This document shows, one piece after another, positions 2,915 to 14,768 of a stretch of 20,867 bases of DNA. The stretch spans positions 1-20,867 of the IMG/VR virus record IMGVR_UViG_3300043602_000008. One strand, 5' to 3'. This stretch comes from a virus. A program made the position numbers and the translations under genes. The notes beneath the pieces were generated by a model. It was not told the DNA's origin and searched no databases. It was given only the letters and a program-made list of their open reading frames with translations. Position 1 is the stretch's first letter. Every line of letters begins with the position of its first letter.

Positions 2915-4789
2915 ATGCTCCGCGCGTACGCCCGACTCGACACGAAACGCGCCGACGGGCGCCCGCGCCGCCTGGCGGGGGTCGCGACGACCCCGACGCC
3001 CGATCGGGCGGGCGACGTGCTCGACCCGCTCGGCGCGACGTTCCGCAACCCGATCCCGCTGCTCTGGCATCACGATAAGGAACGGCCGATCGGGACCGTG
3101 ACGCTCCACGCGCCGACGCTCGCGGGGATCGATTTCGACGCGACGATCCCCGACGTCGACACGCCCGGGCCGCTCCGCGACCGCGTCGAGGAAGCCTGGC
3201 AAACCCTGACCGCCGGTCTGATTACGGGCGTCTCGATCGGGTACCGCGTGCTCGATGGCGGGATGTCGATCTTGAAAAACGGCGCCCGCAAGTTTTCCCG
3301 CGTCGAGATTTGTGAACTGTCGCTCGTCACCGTCCCCGCGAATATGGACGCGACGATCCACACGATCAAATCGCTCGACGCGTCGTACCTGGCCGCGCCT
3401 GGCCGAACGTCCGGCGTTCCGGTTCCGCTGAGAACAACCCCCATGACGACCCAAGAAAAAATCCAGAATTTCGAAAACACGCGCGCCGCGAAAGTCGCGC
3501 AGATCGCGAATTTGATGGAGTCGGCGCCCGACACGACGACGATCCCCGACGACGATCGCGCAACCGTCGACGCGCTGACCCTGGAAGTGAAAGCGATCGA
3601 CGGCGACCTGGTTCGGTACCGCGACCTCGAGAAGTTGCAAACCGCGGGCGCGACGCGGATCGTCCCGGGTCCAGGCGTGACCGCGCCGCGAAACCCCGTG
3701 ATCACGATCCGGCCGAATGTCCCGCTCGGGACCGCGTTCGTCCGCGCCGCGTGCGCGAAACTCGTGTGTAACGGGAATTTGCACGAAGCGGCCGAGTACG
3801 CGAAGCGGTGGGACAGTTCGACGCCCGAAGTCGCGTTGTACCTGAAAGCGGCGATCGCGCCAGGGACGACGACCGATGCGACGTGGGCGTCGCCGCTCGT
3901 CGCGACCGGGATCGCGAGCGAATTCGTCGAACTGCTCCGACCCGCGACCATTCTCGGGAAGATCCCCGGGTTGCGTCAGATCCCGTTCAACACGAAAGTT
4001 CCCTCGCAAACCGCGGGCGGAACGTACGGGTGGGTCGGGGAAGCGAAACCGAAACCCGTGACGAAACTCGCGTTCGCGGCGACGACGCTCGGGGTCGCGA
4101 AAGCGGCGGGGATCATTGTCCTGACCGAAGAACTGGTCCGTCTGTCGAACCCGTCGGCGGAAGCCCTGGTCCGCCAGGACATGATCGCGGGGATCGCGCA
4201 ATTCCTGGATCAACAGTTCATCGATCCGGCCGTCGCCGCGGTCGCCGGGGTCAACCCCGCGTCGATCACGAACGGCGCGCCGACGGCCGCGGGGAGCGCG
4301 AGCCCGACGGCCGATATCATGGCGCTGATCAACCATTTCGCGACGAACAATATCGCGGTGGGCGGGGTCACGTTCATCTTGTCGGCGGCGAATTGTCTCG
4401 GGCTGTCGTTCCGGGTCAACGCGGACGGATCCCCGGCGTTCCCCGGGGTCGACGTGAACGGCGGGAGTTACAAGGGGCTGACGTTCATCGCGTCGCAAGC
4501 GGCGGGAACGAACGTGATCGCGCTCCAACCGTCGTTGGTCCTCTACGCGGACGACGGCGGGGTGACGATCGACGCGTCGCGGGAAGCGTCGTTGCAGATG
4601 GACAGCGCGCCCATGTCGCCCGCCGACGCGACGACCGTATTCGTGTCGTTGTGGCAGACGAACTCCGTCGGCCTCCGCGCGGAACGGTACGTGAACTGGT
4701 TGCGCGCGAACCCGAACGCGGTGAAGTACCTGACCGCGGTCGCCTGGCCCGCGCCGTCGGGCGCCCCGCTCGAAAACCCCGTGCTCTAA
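2915..4789 (+). CDS. Fused prohead protease and HK97-fold major capsid protein
   Basis: A single 624-aa ORF carries two jobs usually encoded separately. Residues ~15-155 resemble the S78/U35 prohead protease: LLWHHDKERPIG around H52/H53, and GVSIGYRV with serine S107 in the usual nucleophile position, then ELSLVTVPAN. Residues ~177-245 form a charged coiled-coil-like delta domain that scaffolds assembly and is normally cleaved off. Residues ~260-620 match HK97 capsid: PATILGKIPGLRQIPF, GGTYGWVGE, a TEEL helix, and the terminal RAERYVNW segment. An in-frame ATG at 3443 (M177, MTTQEKIQ) sits where a separate capsid gene would start, but only a weak GAG lies upstream. The fused precursor could mature by self-cleavage, or capsid could be made from the internal start as well. 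Confidence 0.93.
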   Translation: MLRAYARLDTKRADGRPRRLAGVATTPTPDRAGDVLDPLGATFRNPIPLLWHHDKERPIGTVTLHAPTLAGIDFDATIPDVDTPGPLRDRVEEAWQTLTAGLITGVSIGYRVLDGGMSILKNGARKFSRVEICELSLVTVPANMDATIHTIKSLDASYLAAPGRTSGVPVPLRTTPMTTQEKIQNFENTRAAKVAQIANLMESAPDTTTIPDDDRATVDALTLEVKAIDGDLVRYRDLEKLQTAGATRIVPGPGVTAPRNPVITIRPNVPLGTAFVRAACAKLVCNGNLHEAAEYAKRWDSSTPEVALYLKAAIAPGTTTDATWASPLVATGIASEFVELLRPATILGKIPGLRQIPFNTKVPSQTAGGTYGWVGEAKPKPVTKLAFAATTLGVAKAAGIIVLTEELVRLSNPSAEALVRQDMIAGIAQFLDQQFIDPAVAAVAGVNPASITNGAPTAAGSASPTADIMALINHFATNNIAVGGVTFILSAANCLGLSFRVNADGSPAFPGVDVNGGSYKGLTFIASQAAGTNVIALQPSLVLYADDGGVTIDASREASLQMDSAPMSPADATTVFVSLWQTNSVGLRAERYVNWLRANPNAVKYLTAVAWPAPSGAPLENPVL

Positions 4790-4848: not shown

Positions 4849-6237
4849 ATGGAATTGCAAATCTTCGGGTACCACGTGATCGCGACGAAGGCGGCGCCGC
4901 CCGCCTTGCGCCCGCTCGACGGCGGGCGGGGTTGGTTCCCGCTCATTCGCGAACCCTCGACGGGCGCCTGGCAACGCAACGAAGAAATCCAACCCGCGTC
5001 CGCGCTCTCCTATTTCGCCGTGTTCGCGTGTGTGACGCTCATCGCGGCCGACATCGCGAAACTCGCGCTCCGGTTGATGCGACGCGACGACGAGGGGGTC
5101 TGGCACGAAACGACGAACCCCGCGTTTTCGCCCGTGCTCCGCAAACCCAACCGGTACCAGACGACGATCAAGTTTGTCGAGCAATGGATCACGTCGAAAC
5201 TGATTCACGGCAACACGTACGTGTTGAAGGAACGCGACGCCCGCGGGATCGTCGTCGCGCTGTACGTGCTCGACCCGCAAAAAGTGACCCCGCTCGTCGC
5301 CCCCGACGGCGCCGTGTATTACGAACTCCGATCGTCTGACCTGGCGGGCGTCGTCGGCGGGGACGCGCCGATCGTCGTCCCCGCGAGTGAAATGATTCAC
5401 GATCGCATGATCGCGCTGTTTCACCCCTTGATCGGGGTCACGCCCCTCTACGCGTGCGGGTTGTCCGCGTTGCAGGGGCTCACGATTCAACAGACGTCGA
5501 ACAAGTTTTTCGCCGCGGGCGCGCAACCGTCGGGCGTGCTCACGGCGCCAGGCGCGATTAAAGACGAAACCGCGAACCGGTTGAAAGCGTATTGGACCGA
5601 AAATTTCTCGGGCGACAACGTCGGCCGCGTCGCGGTCGTCGGCGACGGGTTGAAGTACGAACCGATGACCGTCAACGCGGTGGACGCGCAATTAATCGAG
5701 CAACTCGGGTGGACGGCCGAGACGATTTGCGCGTGCTACCACGTCCCCGCGTTCATGATCGGCGTCGGCCCGCCCCCGCCGTTTTCAAGCGTCGAGCCCA
5801 TGCAACAGCAGTACTACTCGCAATGTGTACAGAGTCTCGTCGTGTCGTGCGAGACGTCGCTTGACGAGGGGCTCGGGATCGCGGGGACGGAGTTCGGGAC
5901 GGAGTTCGACATTGACGATTTGATCTATATGGACACGTCGACGCGGACGAAAGCCGCGAGCGAAGCGATCGGGTCGGGCGCCGTGTCGCCGAACGAAGCG
6001 CGCCGCAAATACTTCGGGCTCGGGTCGGTCCAGGGCGGCGACACGCCGTACATGCAACAACAGAATTATTCCCTGGCCGCGCTCGACGAGCGCGATCGAA
6101 ACTCCCCGTTCGCGGCGCCGGCGCCCGCGCCGCCCGCGGCCGCGGCGCCCGCCGAACTCCCGCCCGCGGACCTGGACGCGACGTTGACCGCGCTCGTCGC
6201 CGCGCTCAACACGAAGGATTGGGGGGCGACCGTATGA
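4849..6237 (+). CDS. Portal protein, HK97 family
   Basis: The 462-aa protein forms the dodecameric ring at one head vertex through which DNA enters and leaves. HK97-portal features in order are ALSYFAVFACVTLIAADIAKL (helix near residue 50), NRYQTTIKFVEQWITSKLIHGNTYV, LYVLDPQKVTPLV, MIHDRMI, GVTPLYACGLSALQG, KFFAAGAQPSGVL, and MTVNAVDAQLIEQ with HVPAFMIGV. The C-terminus (~residues 420-455) is a Pro/Ala-rich tail. ATG at 4849 is selected because the family begins about 50 residues before the first helix; the open frame reaches far upstream to 3808, but that part lies under the capsid gene. The stop overlaps the next ATG (ATGA at 6234). Confidence 0.95.
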   Translation: MELQIFGYHVIATKAAPPALRPLDGGRGWFPLIREPSTGAWQRNEEIQPASALSYFAVFACVTLIAADIAKLALRLMRRDDEGVWHETTNPAFSPVLRKPNRYQTTIKFVEQWITSKLIHGNTYVLKERDARGIVVALYVLDPQKVTPLVAPDGAVYYELRSSDLAGVVGGDAPIVVPASEMIHDRMIALFHPLIGVTPLYACGLSALQGLTIQQTSNKFFAAGAQPSGVLTAPGAIKDETANRLKAYWTENFSGDNVGRVAVVGDGLKYEPMTVNAVDAQLIEQLGWTAETICACYHVPAFMIGVGPPPPFSSVEPMQQQYYSQCVQSLVVSCETSLDEGLGIAGTEFGTEFDIDDLIYMDTSTRTKAASEAIGSGAVSPNEARRKYFGLGSVQGGDTPYMQQQNYSLAALDERDRNSPFAAPAPAPPAAAAPAELPPADLDATLTALVAALNTKDWGATV

Positions 6238-6701
6238 CCGCCGACCTCCCGATCGTCGCCGCGGTCGTCGACGCGATCGAACGGGCCGTCCGCGCGGCCG
6301 TCGCGCCGCTCGTGACGCGCCTGGTCGCGGTTGAAACCGCGGCGGGGCGGTTGACCGCGCTCCCCGACCAGGTCGCCGCGCTCGCGGCCGTGGCGCCCGT
6401 CCCTGGCCCCCCGGGGGCGCCAGGCGCCGACGGCGCGGGCGTCGACCTGGTCACGTGCGAGTACGACGGGGAACGGGCGGTGACGTTCACATGGGCGCGG
6501 GGCGGGGCGGTCGACACGCGGGCGATCGTGCTCCCGTTCATGCTGTACCGGGGCGTGTATGTCCCCGGGCGCCTGTATGACCGGGGGGATTGTGTGACGC
6601 TCGACGGGTCGATCTTCCATTGCAACGCGGACACGACGACGCGCCCGGGGAGCGGGGGCGCCTGGACGCTCGCGGTCAAACATGGGCGGGACGCGCGATG
6701 A
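6234..6701 (+). CDS. Head-fibre-like protein with collagen-like motif and carbohydrate-binding module
   Basis: The 155-aa protein has three parts. An N-terminal Ala/Val-rich helix (residues ~5-60) looks like a trimerising coiled coil. A short collagen-like stretch, PGPPGAPGADGAG, follows around residue 63. The C-terminus (~residues 105-155) has YRGVYVPGRLYDRGDCVTL and TRPGSGGAWTLAVK, the pattern of small chitin/carbohydrate-binding modules common on phage fibres. The location between portal and head-tail connector suggests a capsid- or neck-attached fibre that sticks to host or environmental glycans. ATG overlaps the portal stop (ATGA) and its own stop overlaps the next ATG. The binding target is unknown. 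Confidence 0.72.
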   Translation: MTADLPIVAAVVDAIERAVRAAVAPLVTRLVAVETAAGRLTALPDQVAALAAVAPVPGPPGAPGADGAGVDLVTCEYDGERAVTFTWARGGAVDTRAIVLPFMLYRGVYVPGRLYDRGDCVTLDGSIFHCNADTTTRPGSGGAWTLAVKHGRDAR

Positions 6702-7381
6702 TGTCGTGGGGGTTCACGTTCAACGCGACGCCCGACGAGCTCGTCGCCGACGGGGAGATCCGGTTCGACGCGCCCGCCCCGTATGTGGGCGTCGCGACGC
6801 GCCTGTATGTCGACAACCTGGACCGCGACGGCCAGTACATCCGCCCGATGATCCTGGCGTACGTGGGCGGGACGGTCGCGTATGTCGAAGGGGCGGGCGC
6901 GACATTCGCGCACGTGCGACTACTCGGCCCCCCGCGGCCGCGGATCGGGTACGTTGAGATCCCGATCGTCGTGCTCGACGCGACGGCCGCGGGCGTGACC
7001 CCGGGCCCGGTCACGGTCGCGTTTCTGGCGCCCCCGCCGACGCCCCCGACCCCCCGCGACGCGGCGACCGATCCGCTGCTCGTCAGTCTGTCGACCGCGA
7101 AAGACCATTTACAGATCACCGACACGTTGCACGACGCGGACGTGTCGCAAAAACTCGCGGCCGCGAGCGCGACGATCCGCGACTATCTCAAGGGGCAAAA
7201 CGATCCGACGTGGGACGCGACGACGGCGCCCCCGTGGATCGCCGCGGCCGTGTTGTTGCTGCTCGCGCATTTTTACGAACATCGCGGCGACGAATTCGGG
7301 AATTCGGGCGACAACGATGATCGCGTCTGGAACGCGATCGCGAACCTGACCCGCCGATCGCGCGATCCCGCGCTCGCGTGA
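6698..7381 (+). CDS. Head-tail connector, gp6-like, with an extra N-terminal domain
   Basis: The 227-aa protein ends with a gp6-like connector domain (~residues 125-227). It begins with LLVSLSTAKDHLQITDTLHDADVSQKL, continues through helices with AAASATIRDYLKG and PPWIAAAVLLLLAHFYEHR, and ends in RSRDPALA. Connector gp6 rings dock beneath the portal. The first ~115 residues are an added beta-rich domain (GEIRFDAPAPYVGVATRLYV and similar) followed by a Pro-rich linker (PPPTPPTPRD), longer than the usual ~100-aa protein. The extra domain may be exposed at the neck. ATG at 6698 overlaps the previous stop. Confidence 0.8.
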   Translation: MMSWGFTFNATPDELVADGEIRFDAPAPYVGVATRLYVDNLDRDGQYIRPMILAYVGGTVAYVEGAGATFAHVRLLGPPRPRIGYVEIPIVVLDATAAGVTPGPVTVAFLAPPPTPPTPRDAATDPLLVSLSTAKDHLQITDTLHDADVSQKLAAASATIRDYLKGQNDPTWDATTAPPWIAAAVLLLLAHFYEHRGDEFGNSGDNDDRVWNAIANLTRRSRDPALA

Positions 7382-7384
7382 CGT

Positions 7385-8383
7385 ATGGGGATCGGTGATT
7401 TTCGACACGTCGGGATCGTGCAAGCGGTCACGTCGATCCCCGACGGGGGCGGCGGGCTCGTCGAAGCCTGGACGGATCTCCCCCCGCCCTGGCGGATCGA
7501 CATTCGCCCCGCGACCGTGCGCGACCTGGAACGACAGACCGCGGGGACGACGGTCGCGACGGCGACGCATATCGTTCACGGGCGGTACCGGCCCGACGTC
7601 AAGGTCGACGCGCGGATCCTGTGGGATCCGGGGTCCGATCCGATCTTCCCGCGCGACGGCCTGGTCGCGTACTGGCCGCTCGACGAGCCCGGGGGCGTGC
7701 GACGCGACCGCATGGGGCGCGCGAACCTAACCGAACACAACGGGGTCGGGAGCGGGCCCGGGCGCGTCGGGGTTGGGGCGAAGTTTCAACAAGTGAACTC
7801 GCAATATTTGGGAATTACCCATGCGGGGCTCGACACGGGAAACAGTGATTTCACCCTAACCGCCTGGATCAACCTGGCGACCGTGTCGCAATGTGTCGTG
7901 CTCGGGAAAGACGCGGGGAACGGGCGGGATTACGCGCTCGACGTGTCCGACCTGGCGCGCGCCCGGTTCACCGCGTACCGGAGCAACGACGAAGCGGTCG
8001 TCACGTCGAGCGGGCCCGACCTGGTCGCGGGGACGTGGTATTTCCTGGCCGTCCTGCACGACGCGGCCGCGGAAACGATCGCGATCCAGGTCAACGACGG
8101 GCCCGTCGACGTGACCTCAACCGCGGGCGTCGCGCTCAACCAGACCGCGGCCGAGTTTCGGATCGGGTCGCGCGCCCGGTCGCCGATTGCGGAGTTTTTC
8201 GACGGGATGATCGACGAAGTCGGGATCTGGAAACGGGTACTCGCGCCCGCCGAACGGAGCGCGCTCTATAACAGCGGGGCGGGCCTGGCGGCGCCCCCGC
8301 TCCGCGCGTTGCGGATCGCGGGGATCGCGAATCCGCAGGAACGCAACCGGGATTTGTTCGTGTTCGCGAAAGAGACGCTATGA
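7385..8383 (+). CDS. Head-closure protein with an inserted LamG-like domain
   Basis: Residues 1-80 read as a head-closure/head-tail joining protein (FRHVGIVQAVTSIPDGGGG, WRIDIRPATVRDLERQTAG, HIVHGRYRPDVKVDARILW). The same fold resumes at residues ~306-332 (LRALRIAGIANPQERNRDLF), its normal C-terminus. Between them, residues ~91-303 form a LamG/concanavalin-like beta sandwich: GLVAYWPLDEPGG, FTLTAWINL, VLGKDAG, GTWYFLAVLHD, FFDGMIDEVGIWKRVL, ALYNSGAG. The usual protein is ~110 aa; this one is 332 aa. The insert sits in a loop rather than at an end, so the ring could display a sugar-binding domain at the neck. The family assignment of the outer halves rests on motif memory. Confidence 0.8.
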   Translation: MGIGDFRHVGIVQAVTSIPDGGGGLVEAWTDLPPPWRIDIRPATVRDLERQTAGTTVATATHIVHGRYRPDVKVDARILWDPGSDPIFPRDGLVAYWPLDEPGGVRRDRMGRANLTEHNGVGSGPGRVGVGAKFQQVNSQYLGITHAGLDTGNSDFTLTAWINLATVSQCVVLGKDAGNGRDYALDVSDLARARFTAYRSNDEAVVTSSGPDLVAGTWYFLAVLHDAAAETIAIQVNDGPVDVTSTAGVALNQTAAEFRIGSRARSPIAEFFDGMIDEVGIWKRVLAPAERSALYNSGAGLAAPPLRALRIAGIANPQERNRDLFVFAKETL

Positions 8384-8766
8384 GCGCGAAACTCGAGCTC
8401 CGCGGGTTCGACGACCTGGTTCGCGACCTGGCCGCGCTCCCCGTGACGCTCCAACACGGCGCCGATCCGATCTTGCTCCGACACGCGCGCGCGTCGGCGG
8501 CGCGGGTCCAGGGCGCGTACCCGATCGTGACCGGCGCGCTCCGCGCGGGGGTCAAGATCGTGGAGCGCACCGCGCGCGGGGTCGCGACGTTGTACACGCT
8601 CGTGTCGAGTGCTCCGCACGCGCATTTATACGAATTCGGGACCGCGCGCACGGCGCCGCGGGCGACGTTTCTCCCGATCACCGAACGCGATCGGCGCGCC
8701 GCGACGGTTGACGTCGCCGCGCTCGTCCGCGCCGAAGGGATCACCGTCGCGGGGGAGCGAACGTGA
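8380..8766 (+). CDS. HK97 gp10-like tail-completion/neck protein
   Basis: The 128-aa protein matches the HK97-gp10 family: LRGFDDLVRDLAALP at the N-terminus, then a helix with ARVQGAYPIVTGALRAGVKI (the conserved P--TG-LR motif) and HAHLYEFGTARTAPRATFLPI (the conserved Y-EFGT--PA-PFL motif). Members act at the head-tail interface, in the same place as here, between head closure and tail terminator. The ATG overlaps the previous stop (ATGA), and its own stop overlaps the next GTG (GTGA). Confidence 0.88.
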   Translation: MSAKLELRGFDDLVRDLAALPVTLQHGADPILLRHARASAARVQGAYPIVTGALRAGVKIVERTARGVATLYTLVSSAPHAHLYEFGTARTAPRATFLPITERDRRAATVDVAALVRAEGITVAGERT

Positions 8767-9185
8767 TCAACACGAGCGAAGTCGAACGCGCGCTCATCGG
8801 GAAACTGACCGCCGATCCCGAACTGACGAGTTATCTCCCCGACGGGGTGTATTGGGATCTCGCGTTGCAGGGGTCGACCCGGTTCGCGATCGTGAGCGCG
8901 TCGACGTCGCGGGGACAAATGGAATTCGGCGGGGTCGACTCCTGGCGCGCGTTGGTCTACATCGTCAAGGCGGTCGTACAAAGTACCGGGACGACGACCG
9001 TCGCCGCGGCCGACGCGCGGATCAACGCGCTGCTCGACCGGCAACCGCTCGCGCTCCCGCCCGCCGCGGGCGCGTCGTTGATGGTCATGCATTGGTTGGA
9101 TCGGGTCCGGTATTCGGAAAACGTCGACGGGAATACCTGGCAACACGGGGGCGCGCGGTACGAAGTGATCGTCACGCCCGCATAG
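8763..9185 (+). CDS. Tail terminator protein, DUF3168/gpU-like
   Basis: The 140-aa protein has the expected size and place for the ring that caps the tail tube and joins it to the head. It begins with a helix (TSEVERALIGKLTADPEL), then has VYWDLALQGSTRFAIVSAST, a central strand WRALVYIVKAVV, a helix AAADARINALLDRQPL, and ends with YEVIVTPA. This order is seen in gpU/DUF3168 proteins. The start is GTG at 8763, coupled to the upstream gene by GTGA. The assignment depends on position plus fold pattern. Confidence 0.75.
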   Translation: MINTSEVERALIGKLTADPELTSYLPDGVYWDLALQGSTRFAIVSASTSRGQMEFGGVDSWRALVYIVKAVVQSTGTTTVAAADARINALLDRQPLALPPAAGASLMVMHWLDRVRYSENVDGNTWQHGGARYEVIVTPA

Positions 9186-11996: not shown

Positions 11997-14768
11997 ATGG
12001 CGGCGACCGATGTCGTCGTCGTGATCGACGGGAAAACGATCACCCCGTTCGCGCGGATCGGGCGCGTGCGGATCGATGACCTCTTGAACGACGCGCCGAA
12101 TACCGCCGCGGTGACGATCGTCGCGACCCCGCGGACGGCCCCCGTCGGGTCGGGCGGGTTCGACCCGGGCGGGTTCGACGCGGGCGGATTTGCGACGGCG
12201 CGGACAGGCGGCGCGACCTCGGGCGCGTTCAACGCGGCCGCGTTCAACCCGGGGGCGTTCGCGTCGGCGACGCTCCCGCCGGCGATGATCACGCCCCCGC
12301 CGATCTTGCCAGGCGCCCCGATCGCGATTTACCTCGGCGCGATCGATCCCGCGTTGCAAATCTTCGGCGGGCAAGTGATGAACCGCGAGCAATACGCGGA
12401 ACTCGAGATCCCCGCCCACGTGCGGTACGACCTGTCGTGTCTCGATTTCACGCGCCGCTTAAATCACCGCACGGTCACGACCGAATACGCGACCGCGAGC
12501 GTCACGGCGATCGTGCAAGACGTGATCGCGCGGTTCGCGCCCGTGATTACGACGACCCACGTCCAAGCGGGGTTGCCCTCGATCCCCGGGATGACGTTCA
12601 CGTTCGAAGATGTCTCGGGCGCGCTGTCCCGTCTGGCGAAAACGATCGGGGCGTCCTGGTATGTCGACTATGTCGGGGATCTCCATTTCTTCATCGGGAC
12701 CGAAGCGGGCGCCGCGCCCGCGCCGATTGTCCCGGGCGGGCGGTTTGCGGATCTGAAAATCTCCGCGGATCTAACGCAGGTCCGCACGCGGATCATTGTC
12801 GAAGCGGCGGGCGCGACCTCGGCCGCGACGGTCCCGACGGCCGACACGTTGATCCCGCTGTCGACCGCGCTCCCCTTCCCGTCGTCGGGCCGCGCGAAGA
12901 TCGGGACGACGATCGTCGCGTACAGCGGGACGAACCCCGGGGGCGTGAAAGCGAACACGACGGGCCCGCTCCCGGCTGGGATCCCCCCCGTCGACCCGAT
13001 CCCGCCCCCCGCGGCGCCAGGCGCCCCCGGGGTCGCGCTCGCGCCCGCGTCGACGGCGGGGCAAGCGGTCGGGCCGTACACGTACGCGGTGACACTCGAG
13101 CTCGCCGACGGGCGACGGTCGGACGTCGGCGCGTCGTCGGCGCCTGTCACGATCACGCCCGCGGCCGCGCCGCCGGCGACGTCGGCCGCGCTGCTCGCGA
13201 CGCCCGCCCGCGGGCCGATCGTCGTCGGGGTCGCGTCGTCCTATGCGACGTCGTTCGTCGACGCGGCGGGCCGTCAAACGCCCGCGACGACGGGCGGGCC
13301 GACGATCACGGGGCGCGCGGTCGTCGCCCCGTCGGGCAATATCCCGTATCAGGTCCAGGCAAACGGCCGGATGAAAACGGGATCGTATTACTACGCGGTA
13401 TCGTTCCTGACCGCGCACGGGGAAACGCTCACGATCCAAAGCGCGCCCGCGGTCCCGATCACCGCCGACAATCAAAAAGTACTACTCCTGGCGATCCCGA
13501 CCGCGCTCGACGGGCGCGTCGTCGGGCGCCGCGTCTATCGGTCGTCGGCGAATCCTGATTTGTCGGGACAGGCGGCCGTAATGGTCCCCTGGCACCGCGT
13601 GATCGATATTCCGAACAACACGGCGACGCAGTACCTCGACGACGCGGCCGATACGGAACTCTCGACGACAACGCTCCCCGTGTTTACGACCGCGAACGAC
13701 GTCGGGGAAGCGGCGACCGTGACGATCCCGACGTCGACCGACCCGCGGGTCGTCGGGCGTCGGCTGTACCGGCAAGACGGCGCGGGCGGGTTCCGCCTGG
13801 TCGCGGACCTGAAAGACAACACGACGACGACGTTCGCCGACGTCGCGGTCGCGAGCGGGGGCGACCTGGCGCCGACCGTCAACGCGATCACGACGGGCGC
13901 GATCCTCATCTCCGGGATCGACCTCGGCCCCGCGGGGACCGTACGGCGGCGCGTGTTTCGGACGGTCGCGGGCGGGTCACAGTATCGGGAACTGGTCGCG
14001 ATCAACGACAACACGACGACGACGTACACGGACGCGAACGGGGATACCGCGCTCGGCGGCGCCCCGCTCCCCCCGGTGGGGATCGCCGGGTCGCCCGCGA
14101 GCGCGGGCGCGGGGATCGCCCCGACGCCCGCGGGGGCGACGACGATCGAACTCGACACCCTGGCGGCGATCCCCGCGGCGGGCTGGATCCTGGTCGAACA
14201 ACAAGTGATCCGGTACCGCGGGACGACGACGATCGACGGCCGGTTCTACCTGACCGGGATCCCCGCGACGGGTGCGGGCGCGATCACGGCCGACATTCTC
14301 GCGGGGACCGTCATCGCGACGATCCCCGCGCTGACGGGCGTCGATCCCGCGCGCCCGGTGACGATCGGCGACGACGTCAATTTGATCGTGATCGTCGACG
14401 ACATCCCGGCACAAACCGCGCTCGCGGCCGTCGAAGGCGGCGACGGGATCGTCGAGCATTACATCCAAGATCGGCGGTTGAGCGACGCCGGCGCCCGCGC
14501 GCGCGCCCTGGCCGAACTCGCGCTGTTCAAGACGATCGAAACGCGGATCACATATACGACCCATGATCTCGAGACGCGGAGCGGCAGGACCGTCCACGTC
14601 GCGTTGCCCGCGCCGACGAACCTGTCGGGGGATTTCCTGATCCAACGCGTCACATTCGACAACGTCGGGACCGCGATCGGGACGGCCCCGCGGCGCCAGG
14701 TCGACGCGTCGACGACGCGGTTTTCGTTTGACGATGTCCTGGCCCGGTTGCTATTGGAGCAAACATGA
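11997..14768 (+). CDS. Large tail hub/baseplate protein with repeated domains
   Basis: The 923-aa protein appears to join a gpD/gp27-type hub with adhesion-like repeats. The hub region (~residues 1-270) includes VVVVIDGKTITPFARIGRVR, AIYLGAIDPALQIFGGQV, YDLSCLDFTRRLNHRTVTTE, TFTFEDVSGALSRLAKTIGA and SWYVDYVGDLHFF, typical of late-control/hub proteins. It is interrupted by a Phe/Gly/Ala repeat (~residues 52-94). The middle (~340-690) contains three copies of a beta unit, VVGRRVYR...NTATQYLDD, VVGRRLYR...DNTTTTFAD and VRRRVFR...DNTTTTYTD, at about residues 507, 584 and 648. The C-terminus (~700-923) returns to hub-like sequence (IVIVDDIPAQTALAAVEGGD, IQDRRLSDAGARARALAELA, TYTTHDLETRSGRTVHV), so the repeats are an insertion. 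Host contact is likely but inferred. Confidence 0.82.
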   Translation: MAATDVVVVIDGKTITPFARIGRVRIDDLLNDAPNTAAVTIVATPRTAPVGSGGFDPGGFDAGGFATARTGGATSGAFNAAAFNPGAFASATLPPAMITPPPILPGAPIAIYLGAIDPALQIFGGQVMNREQYAELEIPAHVRYDLSCLDFTRRLNHRTVTTEYATASVTAIVQDVIARFAPVITTTHVQAGLPSIPGMTFTFEDVSGALSRLAKTIGASWYVDYVGDLHFFIGTEAGAAPAPIVPGGRFADLKISADLTQVRTRIIVEAAGATSAATVPTADTLIPLSTALPFPSSGRAKIGTTIVAYSGTNPGGVKANTTGPLPAGIPPVDPIPPPAAPGAPGVALAPASTAGQAVGPYTYAVTLELADGRRSDVGASSAPVTITPAAAPPATSAALLATPARGPIVVGVASSYATSFVDAAGRQTPATTGGPTITGRAVVAPSGNIPYQVQANGRMKTGSYYYAVSFLTAHGETLTIQSAPAVPITADNQKVLLLAIPTALDGRVVGRRVYRSSANPDLSGQAAVMVPWHRVIDIPNNTATQYLDDAADTELSTTTLPVFTTANDVGEAATVTIPTSTDPRVVGRRLYRQDGAGGFRLVADLKDNTTTTFADVAVASGGDLAPTVNAITTGAILISGIDLGPAGTVRRRVFRTVAGGSQYRELVAINDNTTTTYTDANGDTALGGAPLPPVGIAGSPASAGAGIAPTPAGATTIELDTLAAIPAAGWILVEQQVIRYRGTTTIDGRFYLTGIPATGAGAITADILAGTVIATIPALTGVDPARPVTIGDDVNLIVIVDDIPAQTALAAVEGGDGIVEHYIQDRRLSDAGARARALAELALFKTIETRITYTTHDLETRSGRTVHVALPAPTNLSGDFLIQRVTFDNVGTAIGTAPRRQVDASTTRFSFDDVLARLLLEQT

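Follow-up and report, generated by a model that had tools for sequence, protein, structure and literature searches.

The usual places to look for phage host-binding modules are the tail tip, the fibres and the capsid, and the Ig-like and LamG modules found on tail fibres, tail tubes and capsids are modular, patchily distributed beta-sandwich add-ons. The neck can carry such modules as well. In Vibrio phage XM1, collar spikes (gp40) bind the head-completion and tail-terminator rings, gp4 and gp5 (PMC10457771). In lactococcal 936 phages, carbohydrate-binding modules are displayed by a neck collar, which 73 of 113 phages possess, and one of these modules has been shown to bind its host cells, while the neck collar of phage TP901-1 was reported to be non-essential (PMC6669499). 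The head-closure (stopper) ring itself has been described for SPP1, whose connector contains six copies of gp16. In this protein a tunnel helix (residues 43-51) lies in the lumen, the beta1-beta2 loop protrudes tail-ward, and the adaptor is contacted by Gln39, Tyr61, Ser91, Glu95, Arg98 and the N-terminus (PMC9701221). The solved gp16-type rings are hexamers (PMC9701221, PMC10457771).

The protein described here resembles the SPP1 gp16/Phage_HCP family (PF05521, including Rcc01689 of RcGTA and gp4 of XM1) in the fold of its un-inserted relatives, in its gene position between adaptor and terminator, in its N-terminal motif and in its terminal strands. However, the solved family members that we found are about 100-140 aa long and have no nested domain, whereas this protein carries a LamG domain of ~213 aa in its beta4-beta5 turn. 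As with XM1 gp40, binding modules would be arranged six-fold, and the rings concerned, those of head completion and of the tail terminator, are the same (PMC10457771), but gp40 is a separate trimeric spike that is held non-covalently by an Ig-like domain, whereas the LamG domain is covalently part of the ring protein. The lactococcal neck passage structure (936, P335) also places binding modules around the connector in only some members, yet it consists of a separate protein (~500-900 aa) that combines a BppU-like ring domain with a coiled-coil fibre and has no head-closure fold (PMC6669499). Pfam and PHROG scans of the nested protein found no BppU-like ring domain, and the carrier is the head-closure protein (HCP) itself. 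The known Ig-like/LamG add-ons sit on fibre, capsid or tail-tube proteins, unlike this one, which is nested in a ring protein of the DNA gate. Thus, neck collars are already known, but a collar domain nested in the stopper ring appears to be new when judged against the open-licence literature, in which we found nothing that combines LamG with head closure or a head-tail connector.

A LamG domain within a head-closure protein

The stretch of DNA analysed, referred to as the window, comprises 20,867 nucleotides of IMG/VR record IMGVR_UViG_3300043602_000008; the IMG/VR records used are possibly fragments. It is the structural-gene block of an HK97-type long-tailed phage, presumably of soil origin, with genes for the small and large terminase, a fused protease-capsid protein, portal, a collagen-like protein, a gp6-like adaptor and the nested protein, followed by a gp10-like protein, terminator, major tail protein, tape measure and tail proteins. 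The gene of the nested protein is thus located downstream of portal, between the gp6-like adaptor and the gp10/terminator genes. It runs uninterrupted from an ATG at 7385 to a stop at 8381-8383, the adaptor gene ends with a TGA at 7379-7381 just before this ATG, and the ATG of the gp10-like gene (8380) overlaps the stop. The features are as follows:

6698-7381, + strand: gp6-like head-tail adaptor (Ad1) with an extra N-terminal domain of ~115 aa, forming the ring above the head-closure ring (Phage_connect_1, E 3e-8; phrog_40 Ad1, E 2.5e-10)
7385-8383, + strand: head-closure (stopper) protein with nested LamG domain, 332 aa (open frame, domain matches, full-length relative L001)
7385-7624, + strand: N-terminal HCP piece, aa 1-80, with beta1, beta2, tunnel helix region, beta3 and beta4 (Phage_HCP 1-81, E 3e-6; 56-77% identity to un-inserted relatives)
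7625-7654, + strand: entry linker, aa 81-90 (DPGSDPIFPR), in place of the 2-6 residue beta-turn of the empty form (alignment, junction DNA)
7655-8293, + strand: LamG/concanavalin A-like beta-sandwich, aa 91-303 (Laminin_G_3, E 5e-22; AF2; Foldseek)
8294-8305, + strand: exit linker, aa 304-307 (alignment)
8306-8383, + strand: C-terminal HCP piece, aa 308-332 and stop, the last two strands (alignment with un-inserted HCP C-termini)
8380-8766, + strand: HK97 gp10-like neck/tail-completion protein (phrog_5, E 9e-10)
8763-9185, + strand: tail terminator, gp17-like (Tail_completion_gp17, E 7e-4, under the family cut-off)

Residues 1-81 of the nested protein match positions 1-80 of the 106 positions of the Pfam model Phage_HCP (E 3.2e-6, 28.1 bits against a cut-off of 25), and also PHROG_25 'head closure Hc1' (E 6e-5). 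The end of the model that is absent from this match is C-terminal, and was recovered behind the LamG domain at residues about 308-332 (ALRIAGIANPQERNRDLFVFAKETL). These residues align with the terminal strands of un-inserted HCPs of 108-112 aa (RTFRITGVASPKERKIELWLFAVETI) at about 50-70% identity. Over residues 1-80, the identity to the same proteins is mostly 56-77%. This bears out the initial annotation, which had read the protein as a head-closure fold split by a LamG domain, and in the alignment the boundaries it gave (1-80, ~91-303 and 306-332) are correct to within a few residues. Un-inserted HCPs without LamG were found in L006/L007, L008/L009, L005, L011, L019, L022, L024, L026, L078 and L148, and in these the two outer pieces are joined by a turn of 2-6 residues. 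For example, L005 reads continuously R-M-L-F-[EGR]-T-F-R-I-T-G, where the window has R-I-L-W-[DPGSDPIFPR + LamG + linker]-A-L-R-I-A-G. Judged from this alignment, the insertion of ~213 aa in the beta4-beta5 turn replaced only a turn of 2-6 residues; by eye, the DNA at the junctions contained no obvious duplication. This shows that a DNA-gate ring protein can accommodate, within a beta-turn, a domain that is twice as large as itself, and it marks this turn as a site of the SPP1 gp16 fold that tolerates insertion.

The un-inserted relatives match the Phage_HCP model over positions 1-105 of 106, with E values down to 1e-16. An AF2 model of the L019 protein (22 sequences) had a mean pLDDT of 79, with strands at 8-19, 25-42, 62-67, 77-80, 83-91 and 99-107 and a helix at 45-50. 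Its best Foldseek match was gp16 in the SPP1 connector (7z4w, TM 0.75, E 1.1e-6), and further matches were neck/stopper proteins of other phages, the Shigella head-tail adaptor homologue 2kz4 and the RcGTA stopper. In agreement, the sequence profile of the HCP family matched 2kz4 at 1e-22, SPP1 gp16 at 5e-13 and the RcGTA stopper Rcc01689 at 3e-8. The un-inserted form is thus predicted to have an SPP1 gp16-type head-closure fold, indicating that the two outer halves, when joined, do make a head-closure protein, as had been proposed. The gp16-type fold was assigned on L019, since the AF2 model of the whole window protein was made with an alignment in which the number of HCP rows was reduced, and its HCP halves remained below pLDDT 50 because only five alignment rows covered them.

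In the same whole-protein model, the block of residues 91-300 forms a confident beta-sandwich (means per ten residues of 81-97). The Pfam model Laminin_G_3 matches residues 139-290 (E 5e-22, 79.1 bits against a cut-off of 27.6), the predicted domain spanning about 91-303, and the PHROG scan also returned several LamG-containing virion proteins. Foldseek matched the block to domain 4 of the arabinanase AbnA (TMt 0.76), sialidase and other ConA-like lectin domains, and sequence profiles matched it to an S-layer protein, AbnA and pentraxins. Its assignment as LamG follows from both a profile score above the curated cut-off and the beta-sandwich fold in AF2 and Foldseek. Several of the solved relatives are sugar-binding proteins, and by analogy of fold and relatives the nested domain would bind sugars as well. 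LamG folds also bind proteins or serve structural roles.

LamG domains on other neck proteins of related phages

Most relatives of the window have no LamG, and none was present in L008, L019 and L022, which are records of 21-23 kb. In the examined records that do carry LamG, it occurs in one gene per record, in different arrangements. Nesting in the HCP turn was found in the window and L001; these two cases are a lower bound, as the collection searches rely on short peptide patterns. Fusion to the HCP C-terminus behind an Ig-like domain was found in L037 (and L036, L038 and L081) and L082, with two LamG domains in L037, and in L084 the LamG domain directly follows the HCP C-terminus. In other relatives the tail terminator carries a C-terminal Ig-like and LamG domain, in L007 (and L006 and L076) and in L078 (and L077 and L079), and in these groups the HCP is plain wherever the record spans it. 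In L096, it is the gp6-like adaptor that carries LamG, at its N-terminus; the adaptor match of this protein is weak (E 0.015) but contiguous and at the right gene position. Finally, L097 has a stand-alone LamG gene between portal and HCP. The coordinates of the fusions are:

L037, 1798-3612: HCP with C-terminal Ig-like domain and two LamG domains
L082, 3207-4409: HCP with C-terminal Ig-like and LamG domain
L084, 1034-2020: HCP with C-terminal LamG domain
L007, 5710-7071, and L078, 3069-4397: tail terminator (gp17-like) with C-terminal Ig-like and LamG domain
L096, 3489-4529: gp6-like head-tail adaptor with N-terminal LamG domain

The Ig-LamG cassettes of L007 (on the terminator) and L037 (on the HCP) are 46% identical, and are therefore related cassettes on two different neck proteins. 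In a seven-gene tree, the window and L001 grouped together (SH-aLRT 98.6, bootstrap 96), as did L007 and L078 (99.9/100), and the LamG-free L008 and L022 were among the nearest relatives. In the portal tree, L081, L082 and L084 formed a separate group (100/100), and L096 and L097 were on long, uncertain branches. This separation, together with the different attachment sites, implies at least three, and probably four, separate gains of LamG on neck proteins. Thus, in one lineage of uncultured, presumably soil-borne phages LamG is attached to the adaptor, head-closure or terminator ring, by nesting or by C-terminal or N-terminal fusion, and its occurrence on several rings with one carrier gene per phage points to the head-tail joint as a general display site. 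It seems that binding domains have repeatedly come to be displayed on the phage neck. The initial annotation had considered a lectin-type domain in a neck ring loop unusual; nesting in the turn was seen in only two genomes, but LamG on neck proteins recurs in this lineage. Pairs of natural phages with and without the domain, for example the window versus L008 or L022, offer a means to probe the role of neck-displayed domains.

The HCP of L008, the nearest LamG-free relative, is un-inserted (5001-5339), and its turn is four residues longer than in the others. This longer turn could be the scar of a lost insertion, and the LamG-free state of L008 may be a loss. In the HCPs of L037, L082 and L084, the region of beta1-beta2 and the tunnel helix is shorter by about 20 residues. 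In L098 (2970-5636), LamG is located inside a protein that weakly matches the 923 aa tail protein of the window (11997-14768), with 24% identity over part of its length. L096 and L098 were also considered as long HCPs, but this was rejected since the extra length was mostly upstream open frame.

Location of the nested domain and its possible role

Up to position 81, the numbering of the window family is about one above that of gp16. Combined with the gp16 contacts, this offset suggests that strand 83-91 ascends from the insertion turn to the adaptor side and that strand 99-107 returns, so that the turn (about 80-82) and the C-terminus would both be at the tail-ward end, adjoining the terminator ring. 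Nested and C-terminal LamG domains would then reach nearly the same place. Six domains of more than 200 residues could not plausibly be accommodated inside the channel, and the comparison of strand topology with the published SPP1 contacts, rather than a docked model, suggests that the LamG domain is exposed outward and tail-ward. By analogy with the solved gp16-type rings, the LamG-bearing ring would be a hexamer that shuts the portal channel; of the six or twelve copies proposed in the initial annotation, six is thus the number to be expected and twelve is not.

We therefore consider it probable that the protein forms a stopper ring with six outward LamG domains that act as an accessory adhesion collar at the head-tail joint. 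The beta4-beta5 turn of the ring protein has been opened by a complete LamG domain with short linkers on both sides. The outer halves would keep the SPP1 gp16-type barrel and assemble into a hexamer, with the gp6-like adaptor on one side and the tail terminator on the other, and the six LamG domains would stick out from the tail-ward outer rim. The most likely task of such a collar would be weak multivalent attachment to cell-surface glycans or a glycan matrix, thereby aiding adsorption. This adsorption role is suggested by analogy with known neck collars, and both the XM1 collar spikes and the lactococcal 936 neck modules make an adhesion collar plausible. The collar would be dispensable, because there are sister phages without LamG, and the patchy presence of LamG fits a dispensable adsorption aid.

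The ligand could also be a phage protein. As a structural clamp, LamG would bind the neighbouring terminator, adaptor or capsid vertex, and not the host, and reinforce the head-tail joint, as the N-terminal domains of XM1 gp40 do at the gp4-gp5 joint (PMC10457771), and it would agree with this that the main LamG carriers found here are neck proteins clustered at one joint. We regard this as unlikely, since sister phages with the same neck set do without LamG in records of 21-23 kb, and the joint therefore does not need it. Moreover, the LamG types differ strongly among the carriers, whereas a shared clamp surface on conserved rings would predict a conserved LamG, and the two LamG domains behind an Ig spacer in L037 are suggestive of reach and not of packing.

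A further alternative is a tolerated passenger, an insert without selected function in a turn that accepts insertions, with LamG modules being abundant in phage DNA. The length of the beta4-beta5 turn varies even in solved relatives (five additional residues in Shigella 2kz4, four in L008), and the distribution of LamG is patchy. However, the second genome, L001 (IMGVR_UViG_3300045120_000058), contains the same nested protein over its full length, with 75% amino-acid and 81% nucleotide identity. At a dS of about 0.4, the HCP halves of the two genomes gave a dN/dS ratio (Nei-Gojobori) of about 0.34, and linker plus LamG one of about 0.46, compared to 0.28 for the flanking gp10-like gene and 0.18 for the terminator gene. 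These ratios indicate that the nested protein is under purifying selection, and that the insert is kept as a protein while evolving faster than its host protein. With the insert open and full length in both genomes, and with repeated separate gains of LamG on neck proteins, a passenger is improbable. The G+C content and third-position G+C of the N-terminal HCP piece and the LamG insert are closely similar.

Slightly less probable still is that ligand binding by LamG acts on the stopper ring, so that the neck senses surface contact and helps to open the DNA gate, a reading prompted by the location of LamG between two strands of the DNA-gate protein itself. In a milder form, the neck joint of this lineage could be an evolvable docking platform with repeated LamG grafting. 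Finally, an artefact, in which a frameshift or, as the initial annotation had cautioned, mis-assembly put a separate LamG gene in frame, finds no support beyond LamG genes being common in metagenomes. It can be dismissed, since architecture and linker positions are the same in L001, a separate metagenome record with 81% nucleotide identity, LamG is followed in frame by the C-terminal HCP strands, and the stop overlaps the next gene.

Host range and other features of the gene block

Portal relatives with up to 60% identity occur in prophages of mostly proteobacteria (Paraburkholderia, Caballeronia, Phyllobacterium, Sphingomonas and others), and among cultured phages Rhizobium phage RHph_X2_26 has the most similar portal (52%); by these matches the host is likely proteobacterial. 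No LamG was present near the neck in any of the 45 scanned prophage loci of cultured or binned bacteria. With P0001 and the un-inserted HCP of L006, tblastn gave no match among 50,697 phage records, hence no cultured phage with the protein was found, and a search of genome contigs with the HCP alignment yielded no relatives. When 185 genomes of one class were scanned with Pfam for background, three of them contained HCP matches, four in total, which did not suffice for a length distribution.

In the window, prohead protease (Peptidase_S78) and major capsid protein are encoded by a single open reading frame of 624 aa (2915-4789), a fusion common to the relatives. The short protein encoded 3' of portal (6219-6701) has a GPPGAPG collagen-like stretch and a C-terminal domain that is weakly CBM 5/12-like. 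Since the portals of PHROG families 1289 and 2271 end in this C-terminal domain, the short protein may be a split-off portal appendage. Finally, the ~115 aa domain at the adaptor N-terminus (6698-7060) had no Pfam match. The window shares this fusion with L001, L008 and others, whereas in L007 and L022 the domain has a gene of its own; it is possibly another neck-displayed domain.
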